From positions 1 to 64,000 of the forward strand of contig JACTMJ010000016.1 of assembly GCA_014584705.1 (NCBI GenBank): a stretch of DNA of 64,000 bases, in the 5' to 3' direction. The stretch is from Acidobacteriota bacterium (GTDB lineage Bacteria; Acidobacteriota; Terriglobia; Bryobacterales; Bryobacteraceae). Under the pieces are notes generated by a model. It had not been told where the DNA came from and ran no database searches. It saw only the letters and a list, made by a program, of their open reading frames with translations. Each line of letters opens with the position of its first letter. Positions within the stretch are counted from its first letter, which is position 1. Position numbers and translations under genes: made by a program. Shown in pieces: positions 61,064 to 64,000 of this stretch.

Positions 61064-61864
61064 GTGAAATACGTCATGAGGCTTTGGGTATCACCGACAA
61101 ATGATCTTGAATCGCTGGAGATTTGCCGGATGTTGAGCGAATCACAGGAGGACTATCTGACAACCGGACAAAGATGGGGTGCAAGCTGGGCTGATCTTGA
61201 GCCGGGCATCACTGCCAGAATCGATGAGTTTCACCGCGAGAACCCATCCTGCCCTGTTTATGGAATCGAACTCCGTGGACCAAGTCCTCCGTTTGCGGAG
61301 AATATCGACCACCATTTGTACAGTGAAGACCGAGGTCGGGGCTTTCCCGCGGAAGACCGCCGTCATCCGCTCACATCGATCGAACAAGTGGCTTCGATTA
61401 TCGGAGTGGAACTCAATCGATTTCAGAGCCTGGTTGCGAAGAACGACTCGGGATACATACCGGCGATGTTGTCATTCGGTGCCTCGAAAGAGGAAATTGA
61501 ATCAATTCGTGAAGCCGACCGCCGGGCACAGGGGCTTACTGAGTCAGACGAGTTGAATGCGAAAGCCGATCTGACTCGGATGGAGAAACGGGGCGATCGC
61601 ATCCGGGTGCGTTGCACGGGTCGGCCGACTTCCGCTCATGTTGACGGTCTTCATGGTTTGGCAACCGAACTCCTGCTGACTTCTCGAGAACAATGGGAAT
61701 ATTACGGGCCTCGATTTCGCAGATTCTTCGCTGTAATGGAGGGAGAAGCATCTTGGCAGGGAGGCACGGCGAGTAACGGCTACGCGGGCGTTCAGAACCC
61801 AACACCGGCATCCCAGGAACTCCTGTTGACGGAATTTTGGAATCCAGCGCCTCCCACCGAGTGA
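61064..61864 (+). CDS. Putative DHH-like phosphoesterase, first gene of a candidate signalling module
   Basis: A 266-residue uncharacterised protein. After a beta strand (VYGIELRG, 66-72) it has ENIDHHLYSED with IDHH at 81-84, the arrangement of the DHH motif of metal-dependent phosphoesterases. It is followed by LTSIEQVASIIGVELN, AKNDSGYIPAML (125-136) and GASKEEIESIREADRRAQG, which read like one conserved domain, then a Gly-rich loop GGTASNGYAG at 233-242. The upstream aspartates of canonical DHH enzymes are not obvious, so the assignment is tentative. Start is a GTG at 61064 (GGAGAA immediately before) or the ATG at 61076. The next gene is 27 bp on, same strand. GC is lower than in the rest of the window, suggesting acquisition. 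It may degrade a nucleotide messenger. Confidence 0.6.
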   Translation: MKYVMRLWVSPTNDLESLEICRMLSESQEDYLTTGQRWGASWADLEPGITARIDEFHRENPSCPVYGIELRGPSPPFAENIDHHLYSEDRGRGFPAEDRRHPLTSIEQVASIIGVELNRFQSLVAKNDSGYIPAMLSFGASKEEIESIREADRRAQGLTESDELNAKADLTRMEKRGDRIRVRCTGRPTSAHVDGLHGLATELLLTSREQWEYYGPRFRRFFAVMEGEASWQGGTASNGYAGVQNPTPASQELLLTEFWNPAPPTE

Positions 61865-61891
61865 CGACACTCTGAGACAATCTCGAAGAAT

Positions 61892-63670
61892 ATGCCAACG
61901 AATAATGACAACAGCCAGACACGGCACTGCCGAAGCAGCCACATCCCCGTTCAGCAATTCATGCTCACTTACATGTGGCCGGTGCGATTGTCGAGCGAAG
62001 GACGGATGCGCGATGAAGTGCGCAATAACCCAGAGCTTTCGGCGAATGATTGGACAAAAGCTTACGCCGAGTGGCTTACCGACAAGGCTAAACATAGCCC
62101 GTGGAATGAGGTAAGCGATTACTACAGAGGGGAACACCGCGCGAACCCGGCATCGGAATGGGAGAGATATGCCGAGTTCAACTACTTCCATCCCTTTGTT
62201 CAGGATCTCCTGTTTGGCGAACAATGCCATCGGTATCGAACGCAATGTATTACGGCCCGTGCCAATTGTGCTGAGCCGGCTAATGGGCGTTCGATCCGCA
62301 TCTTAAGCCGGTCCGATATTCGCGGCGTCCAGTTCCAGTTAAGGGACGATGGCCCCTTGTGGAAGGCACCCGTAAATCGAGTGAATCTCCTCATTTTTCC
62401 GACCGACGTGGCCATTGCCGTCGTGGAAGTGTCCGATGTGCCGCAATGCCACAACAAGCGGAATGCATTTACTCTTGCGGATGCCCTGGATACGCTCGAT
62501 TGGACACGGCGCACGCATCCGCCCTTCTTCGACTGTGATAGAAATGCGGAACGCCTAAATGCGGGACTGGTGCCGAAGCGGATGTCATGGCTGGATGAAG
62601 ACGGTGTTCAGATTGGAGATCCAGCCAATTTTGATTGTGCATCGACATTTCTGAATCAGGTTCGAGAGAACCGTGTAGTACCGGTAGCCGACCATTGGTC
62701 CTGGTTGATGCAACCGCTGAGACCGCAGGGGATGAATCGCGGGGCGGAGTGCCAACTCACCTACTCGGAGGTGGAGGACGACCGGCTTCCGGTGCTGGCC
62801 TTGATCGGAGTTGACCATCCTCAAGAGATCAGTGATCCCGATTGGGTTCGGATTGCTTATTGCGACTCGAAAGGACCGTCTTTCCGGTACCCCTATGCGA
62901 GACACTTTTTGGAAAGGGAGGACCAGAGCTTTTCTTACGATCGATTCTGGGATCCGGATATGGGCTTGTCTACGCGCCTCCTCTGCACGAGTTATTCCTT
63001 CATAGCAGTAGGTTCAACCTATGACTACACATTCAGGGAGCATGTCACTAGCCATATTCGAATGCACTATTTTATCCTCTTGATGCTGGCGCACATGCAA
63101 AAGGCCTCGCTTCTTTCCTACTTGAAACGGCTTTCCGATATCGTGCATGTATTTGAAAGCCAGCCACCAACCCCGGCGGAGTCGAGAGCTTTGCGCAAGG
63201 ATATCGCATGGGTGCTGCAGGATCTCACGGACTTTGTTTCCAGGTTTTACCATCAGGAAATTTCCAACCAGCTACAGGCTATTGAACTCTACGACCTGAT
63301 CCTGACGCGTCTGCGAATTCGATCCCTGTTCAAGGCTGTAGTAGAGCAGACAGATTTTGTCAATCATGTCGCCACGCAGCAATGGCAGGAAGACATGACA
63401 AGGGAGCAGACCCGCCTCAGCAGGTTTGCCGGTTGGTTTGTGCCATGGAGTATCGCGCTGGCCGCTGTGGCAATTTTCCTTGGCCTGCCGACGGTAACCG
63501 AGTATCTGCATAACCGATGGCTAAGGATGTGCCGAGATGATACACCTGTTCATTTCGGGATCCTTGGCGGATTGTTGGTGGCAGTTATAATTCTAGTGTG
63601 GATCCTTTATCTGTGCTTCCGAAAGTATGCCAATCATAAAGTATCCACGGACAGTGAACATTATGGATGA
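61892..63670 (+). CDS. CorA-like two-helix membrane protein, putative effector
   Basis: A 592-residue protein. The first about 350 residues are a soluble alpha/beta domain; residues about 385-510 are predominantly helical ([40 protein letters not shown]), a stalk-like region. Two membrane helices close the protein (about 515-535 and 554-577) with an 18-residue loop, and the C-terminus is cytoplasmic and short. This is the architecture of CorA-type channels, but the GMN motif normally at the end of the first helix is absent (GLPTVTEY instead), so Mg2+ transport is unlikely. CorA-like proteins serve as membrane effectors in some nucleotide-signalling defence systems. The ATG has a weak ribosome site; the following gene begins 4 bp after its stop. 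Confidence 0.65.
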
Positions 63671-63674
63671 ACTG

Positions 63675-64000
63675 ATGAGCACCTATTACCTTCGAGCGGA
63701 AGCAGTGAACTTTGAAGATTTTGTCTTGGATACCTCCGATCTCAGCACGATACGCGGAGGAGGACTACTTCTCCTGGAAGCATTCGAGGGAATCCTGGAT
63801 AGGTTCCCCGAACTGGTTGAAATATATAAAGGCGGATCGATCGGATTTTATTACTTCAAAGCGCCGGGGGCGGAGGCGGCGGAGACAGTTCGCTCCAGGG
63901 TTGAAGCAGAGCTTCGGGCCGGGAACCGCAAGTATGCGACCTTTGTCGTGGACATAGAGCAGGGCCCGGATATCGCGGACCCGAGCTTGGATAGCAATAC
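63675..64000 (+). CDS. Start of a Cas10/Cmr2-like palm-domain protein, cut by the window end
   Basis: 108 codons are visible. Strand 1 ([10 protein letters not shown]), a helix with [19 protein letters not shown], and a hairpin [14 protein letters not shown] followed by a helix ([11 protein letters not shown]) and a strand (KYATFVVDI) reproduce the order of a Cas10-type palm domain; GGSI at 53-56 lies where the active palm has GGDD. In Cas10 the first palm is inactive and the second carries GGDD, which would lie beyond the window. Start: ATG at 63675; an in-frame ATG at 63663 overlaps the upstream gene. A minimal CRISPR polymerase (mCpol) or diguanylate-cyclase-like protein is an alternative. 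The third gene of the module. Confidence 0.6.

Follow-up and report, generated by a model that had tools for sequence, protein, structure and literature searches.

The right edge of a 64-kb stretch of DNA from a soil bacterium of the family Bryobacteraceae (Acidobacteriota) cuts into a type III CRISPR locus that, with a probability of about 0.75, signals through a CorA/NrN module, using S-adenosylmethionine-AMP (SAM-AMP) as its messenger, and that has an effector of III-D-like make-up by sequence. The stretch (the window) is the leading 64 kb of the 157-kb contig G000:C13. A first-pass annotation, made from the letters of the window, had proposed a nucleotide-messenger defense module of three genes at this edge, for a DHH-family phosphodiesterase (nrn), a CorA membrane effector (corA) and a Cas10-like polymerase (cas10). 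Its description holds up: the genes are co-directional, with gaps of 27 bp between nrn and corA and 4 bp between corA and cas10; the first product has a DHH triad at residues 82–84; the second has hydrophobic segments from about residues 512 and 557, the two proposed C-terminal membrane helices; and the third begins with the start of a Cas10-type palm, whose other motifs, DGNKF and GADE, lie outside the window. The lower GC content reported for the trio is also real (0.51–0.57 from about 60.5 kb onward, compared to mostly 0.58–0.67 in the 44–64 kb profiled, which has a second dip, to 0.52–0.56, at 46–47.5 kb). The trio is not a chance grouping, because its products match the PADLOC profiles DHH_CorA (E = 2.8e-32), CorA (E = 5e-66) and Cas10 (E = 2.7e-19), and our confidence in the gene identities at this locus is high.

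The annotation had seen no Cmr or Csm subunit, Cas6 or repeat array in the window, whose right flank was missing, and it allowed for either an unusual type III locus or a trio free of CRISPR. When the right flank was read, we found genes for a Cas7-Cas5 fusion and a multi-Cas7 protein, two CRISPR arrays and cas6 directly downstream (Table 1), so the annotation's first alternative, an unusual type III locus, is right, and we rejected the CRISPR-free one. The lack of Cmr subunits still stands, as none of the seven locus proteins scanned reaches the cut-off of any Cmr equivalog model, but the lack of arrays and Cas6 does not.

Neither Pfam nor NCBIfam has a family that matches the DHH protein at E = 1; by profile comparison it is a clear homolog of NrN: a profile of four sequences of its family matches the solved NrN structure 9lq9_A (E = 6e-32), and the protein is 33% identical to the NrN part of NrN-CorA fusions from III-B loci (hhalign E = 1e-24). 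A tree of NrN sequences had long branches and was not used. The CorA protein matches neither Pfam families nor solved structures, and it aligns by hhalign with III-B CorA over 408 columns that span the sensor and membrane parts (E = 5e-25). It contains RR and DDR motifs, which are probably the residues mutated by Chi et al. 2023 (PMC10600005; papers with PMC numbers are cited here from excerpts) in the CorA variants R152A/R153A and D219A/D220A, neither of which conferred immunity.

In the mechanism that we propose, Cas6 would process the array transcripts, and a complex of Cas10, Cas7-Cas5 and multi-Cas7 loaded with CRISPR RNA would bind phage RNA. The Cas10 palm, with no HD nuclease beside it, would then make SAM-AMP from ATP and S-adenosylmethionine (SAM); SAM-AMP would open the CorA channel and so harm the membrane of the infected cell; and NrN would split SAM-AMP, which would reset or tune the response. 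We name SAM-AMP with moderate confidence, mainly because the NrN of Bacteroides fragilis cleaved SAM-AMP and not pApA or the cyclic oligoadenylates that were tried (PMC10600005).

A III-D-like effector complex

The Cas10 protein has only a below-threshold palm match in Pfam. A profile of six Cas10 sequences matches chain 9wxh_B with E = 6e-112, and the sequence matches next in line are III-D. Its AlphaFold2 model, built from 29 sequences (confidence scores pLDDT 75 and pTM 0.82; a model from six sequences was poor, with pLDDT 61, and was not used), shows the palm-polymerase fold seen in known Cas10s. Compared to fold libraries with entries up to April 2026, the model is most similar to III-D Cas10s (Z = 20.6–21.5 over 448–456 residues; the best is 8s9v_C, Z = 21.5 over 454 residues), whereas III-B Cmr2 reaches Z = 16.9 and the rest are near 15; 9wxh is not among the best 50 fold matches listed. 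We conclude that there is no HD nuclease domain, because the matches in the longer III-A and III-B chains start at residue 217 or later, past that domain. Among the 29 of 36 Cas10s that were aligned together, the acidic residues D244 and D329 are invariant and E330 is at least 90% conserved. The annotation's parts list of NrN, CorA and Cas10 is upheld by sequence and, for Cas10, also by fold.

Its likening of the trio to a III-B system needs a correction as to the effector. The Cas7-Cas5 fusion matches PF03787 (E = 5.7e-12) and the PADLOC III-D G5 profile (E = 2.3e-59), and its family profile matches 9wxh_C (E = 2e-146); the multi-Cas7 protein scores 245.8 bits against TIGR03986 (cut-off 161.35) and matches 9wxh_D (E = 4e-88). 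The Csx10 model TIGR02674 gives a match below its cut-off (E = 0.0019). Models of single-protein effectors score far lower than required (gRAMP, 124 of 700 bits; III-I, 28.9 of 800), and a Cas10 palm is present. Judging by gene spacing alone, the effector genes are too closely packed to have csx19 between them. Three results lead us to call the effector III-D-like and not III-B: the TIGR03986 score exceeds its cut-off, none of the Cmr equivalog models reaches theirs, and the Cas7-Cas5 fusion fits PADLOC III-D G5. Since the three effector proteins match three chains of 9wxh, this kind of complex has already been solved, although a literature search found no publication describing that structure. 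The chains of 9wxh, 9wxi and 9wxj are a Cas10 of 592 aa, a 635-aa protein and a 1235-aa TIGR03986 protein, which are the same three kinds of subunit at similar sizes, except that the palm motif reads GGDE in the alignment where the window has GADE. Among our loci, the one nearest to 9wxh (L025; 37% identity over 482 residues) has a DHH gene, with the motif reading DHD.

Three other known systems resemble the locus in part. Like the III-B Cmr system of B. fragilis (PMC10600005), it has corA, a DHH-type nrn and an HD-less Cas10 together; the NrN proteins are homologous, and the CorA proteins of III-B relatives can be aligned through both sensor and membrane parts. It differs in having a fused Cas7-Cas5 and a multi-Cas7 instead of Cmr1-6, in its GADE palm, and in that the B. 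fragilis Cas10 residues D70 and E151 could not be placed on it. The III-B loci L065 and L066, on plasmids of Arcobacter and Haliscomenobacter, have cas10 next to NrN and CorA parts that are homologous to those here, but with annotated cmr genes and with NrN and CorA fused. Like the III-Dv complex of Synechocystis (8s9t–8s9x; PMC11026444), the effector has fused Cas7-type subunits, a TIGR03986 relative, and a Cas10 that is the closest by fold among the structures compared. The Synechocystis system differs in its accessory genes for Csm6 and Csx1, its csx19, its GGDD motif and its Cas7-Cas5-Cas11 fusion, and CorA is not named in the text of that paper.

The CorA/NrN module was already known from III-B; what is new is the attachment of this SAM-AMP-type signaling to a III-D-like effector, which suggests that the module moves between type III subtypes. 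CorA-associated III-D systems are singled out for study in the classification of Makarova et al. 2025 (PMC12669027), on the ground that III-D loci encode no known SAM-AMP-cleaving enzymes. If their III-D set includes the clade described here, our loci fill this eraser gap; otherwise, they are a further CorA/NrN lineage.

Table 1. Features of the locus. Coordinates in the right flank follow the numbering of contig G000:C13, which continues that of the window.
Feature	Position	Strand	Details
nrn, DHH-family phosphodiesterase	61064..61864	+	266 aa, GTG start
corA, membrane effector	61892..63670	+	592 aa, sensor domain and two C-terminal transmembrane helices; RR and DDR motifs
cas10	63675..65519	+	614 aa; first 326 bases (63675..64000) inside the window; no HD domain
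cas7-cas5 fusion	65552-67504	+	650 aa
multi-Cas7 TIGR03986 subunit	67497-71162	+	1221 aa
CRISPR array 1	71465-71946		7 repeats of 37 bp, 6 spacers
Reverse transcriptase joined to Cas2 minus its first strand	72334-73458	+	374 aa from likely Met
CRISPR array 2	73713-74355		9 repeats, 8 spacers
cas6	74422-75759	-	Cas6 PF10040 1.1e-10; PADLOC 3.6e-55

Recurrence of CorA and NrN beside this Cas10

By scanning contigs with the Cas7-Cas5 alignment we found 36 named relatives of the locus. For counting we used a set of 36 cas10 loci, made by adding the window and leaving out L053, a fragment without cas10. CorA is present in 23 of these loci and a DHH gene in 15: both are found in 12, while 11 have CorA without DHH, three have DHH without CorA and 10 have neither. 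The complete trio recurs in other genomes. Neither of the two outcomes that the annotation named as refuting, a Cas10 without a palm fold or a trio not conserved elsewhere, was observed. All three loci with DHH alone are on contigs that start no more than 1.2 kb from cas10. Among the 15 DHH loci, in addition to the DHD motif of L025, the match in L049 is weak and lacks the motif. Both genes are present in Acidobacteriota (the window, L021, L026, L036 and L040), in Alphaproteobacteria (L039, Rhodobacter capsulatus; L048, Rhodovulum; L056, Tabrizicola), and in metagenome-assembled genomes (MAGs) of Methylothermaceae (L041), Geobacter (L055) and 'Deltaproteobacteria' (L051 and L052). The relatives from the same family as the window genome are MAGs labeled Bryobacterales or 'Acidobacteriia' (G036, G293 and G347). 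Three loci with both genes come from records that are not labeled as MAGs (R. capsulatus DSM 1710, Tabrizicola sp. SY72 and Rhodovulum sp. PH10), and these III-D-like loci with CorA and NrN make the question of the messenger directly testable.

Since nrn differs in position and strand among loci, inheritance with the operon does not by itself account for its presence. Across 399 genomes of the window's class, the window Cas10 has matches in six and DHH_CorA also in six, with no DHH_CorA match in 14 control genomes. Four of the DHH_CorA copies are unbroken, and all four adjoin this Cas10 and CorA; the other two, in G369 and G396, are interrupted by a frameshift or a stop, and the 16–17 kb around them contain no match to CorA or Cas10.

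In some loci the genes are joined. DHH is fused to CorA in L052, and in L051 cas10 and corA, both truncated, share one frame, which could be an assembly fault. In Geobacter sp. L1geo (L055:13348-16350) an NrN-like domain forms the C-terminal part of a 1001-aa Cas7-type frame, with no convincing start codon between the two parts. The SAM-AMP papers, in their excerpts, describe the reason why immunity requires NrN as not understood, and this question is touched by a frame that holds both the eraser and an effector subunit.

Other loci have variant proteins and no DHH gene. Three loci of Azospirillum and Niveispirillum (L043:10040-11569, L045:15996-17522 and L047:13675-15204) each encode an additional CorA-like protein, about 510 aa long and lacking transmembrane helices in all three cases, that might serve as a soluble sensor, a sponge or an eraser. 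The CorA proteins of L033 (72-2246) and L044 (122-2443) have about 170–220 extra residues N-terminal to the CorA match; no DHH gene was seen in these loci, and the extra part could replace NrN.

The messenger and the state of the locus

Several observations weigh against SAM-AMP signaling as the function of this locus. The motif RR-x-Y/H has no match in eight of 26 CorA frames and is found elsewhere in the protein in L027 and L038. No DHH gene is present in the DNA examined for 11 of the 23 CorA loci, and whole-genome searches of G347 and G246, which have this Cas10 and CorA, found no DHH match; we conclude from these two genomes that nrn is common but not obligatory in the clade, and lowered our probability from 0.77 to 0.75 on their account. 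When we compared the Cas10 to III-B Cas10 by hhalign, only the second palm region aligned, leaving D70 and E151 unmapped, and by eye the clade shows G-A or G-S where III-B has Asp. Of the 36 loci, 33 have the palm motif GGDE, a form listed by Hoikkala et al.; the window and L022 have GADE, which their list lacks. GGDE is also found in CorA-less relatives, so by itself it is no sign of SAM-AMP. The remaining locus, L042 from Rhodospirillales, has a Cas10 without a GxDE match and no CorA, DHH or 4TM match, and is perhaps a cyclase-dead member.

An alternative is that the locus has the same membrane outcome but a different messenger, for instance a dinucleotide, linear or cyclic, or some other conjugate of a nucleotide with SAM, sensed by CorA and cleared by the NrN-like enzyme. 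The excerpts of the 2025 classification (PMC12669027) leave the messenger of CorA-associated III-D systems open, and the palm motif shared by 35 of the 36 loci, the unmapped D70 and E151 and the CorA loci without NrN all agree with this alternative, as do the membrane proteins of the CorA-less members. Seven of these 13 loci encode proteins of types known from CBASS (cyclic-oligonucleotide-based antiphage signaling systems): S_4TM in L029, L030, L032 and L054 (Pfam E = 7e-52 to 6.5e-63), PADLOC 4TM in L024 and L034, and SLATT in L037. Profiles built from these membrane proteins found no 4TM or SLATT protein in any of the 23 CorA loci. L024 also has a DHH gene, and its contig ends just upstream of cas10. 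We found no literature linking S-4TM, type III CRISPR and Cas10; a swap between CorA and 4TM/SLATT proteins would tie type III CRISPR to CBASS effectors. Against a different messenger, SAM-AMP was the one compound of those tried that the B. fragilis NrN cleaved (PMC10600005), and the enzyme here is its clear homolog, so we consider this alternative unlikely.

Decay of the locus, to the point that it immunizes no longer, is in our view rather improbable, and would be compatible with SAM-AMP signaling as its original purpose. The locus has no Cas1, and the gene between the two arrays is a reverse transcriptase (RVT_1, E = 9e-36) joined to a truncated Cas2 (PF09827, E = 1.4e-8): the frame tracks the reverse transcriptase to about residue 300 and continues with Cas2 from its first helix, with Cas1 and the first Cas2 strand gone. 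In nine relatives the reverse transcriptase and Cas1 are in one frame, and eight of the nine have a Cas2 match. Because of these relatives, and because the join resembles a deletion, we set aside the idea of a designed fusion; the protein is probably the product of an in-frame deletion, though it may still have a function. A literature search found no paper naming RT-Cas2. The genome has a single Cas1 match, on another contig (L005, G000:C24:296000-307808), where it adjoins a Cas9-like frame of 1030 aa. At that site the Cas9-like frame, Cas1 and repeats are at a contig end, with Cas9 and the repeats recognized by eye.

The arrays are short, with 14 spacers between them, and the last repeat of each carries four mismatches. 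However, the other 14 of the 16 repeats are identical, the effector genes have uninterrupted frames as long as those of their relatives, and CRISPR interference does not require Cas1. A genome-wide search for the repeat, allowing up to three mismatches, found 14 copies, all of them perfect and all at this locus. The leader and first repeat of array 2 are an 88% copy of their counterparts in array 1, and the spacers of array 2, the only ones searched, have no match in phage records.

Canonical signaling by cyclic oligoadenylates, with corA and nrn as chance acquisitions or dormant, would suit the ordinary fold of the Cas10, but it is very improbable given that CorA and DHH recur together and that we found no CARF or SAVED family in the seven locus proteins scanned, none among the best 25 of 107 and 25 of 48 families matched by 60 flanking frames of relatives, and no CARF in ten further frames scanned singly.

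CorA paralogs outside CRISPR loci

The PADLOC profile for CRISPR CorA, PDLC01043, matches 69 of the 399 class genomes and five of the 14 control genomes. Its weak matches mean little, because control genomes match too, as ordinary CorA transporters would. At E ≤ 2e-42 there are 57 matching places, six of them linked to Cas10 and 51 elsewhere, including one in the window's own genome (L085, G000:C6:5710-7089). We read ten of the 51 (L085 and L086–L094), and by our own cas profiles, which are III-D-type and would miss distant subtypes, none has a cas gene within 16–18 kb. A profile of nine of the ten aligns with CRISPR CorA over 513 columns (99.8%), and the paralogs share its arrangement of sensor and membrane parts. 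In these nine the GMN motif is retained, and RK and DER stand in place of the RR and DDR of the window CorA; the copy in the window's own genome is alike in these motifs. CorA paralogs with no cas gene found alongside are common in this bacterial family and could simply be diverged transporters of an ordinary kind. SAM-cycle genes are near two of the ten, metK and a S-adenosylhomocysteine hydrolase gene in L088 and a homocysteine methyltransferase gene in L087; this may be chance.

A wider reading, which we offer tentatively as a possibility, joins these observations. The GGDE/GADE Cas10 clade would be a separate, membrane-directed and CARF-free branch of type III. In one arm SAM-AMP would act on CorA, with NrN as an eraser that is sometimes built into the effector complex, as in the Geobacter Cas7-NrN frame; the other arm would act on CBASS-type 4TM/SLATT proteins, perhaps through a different small nucleotide. 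The CorA sensor would have been drawn from the chromosomal, CRISPR-free CorA family, which may answer a native nucleotide-SAM ligand.

To the left of the locus, at 59764-60738 in the window, there are short VDTVDTMDT-like repeats in overlapping frames.

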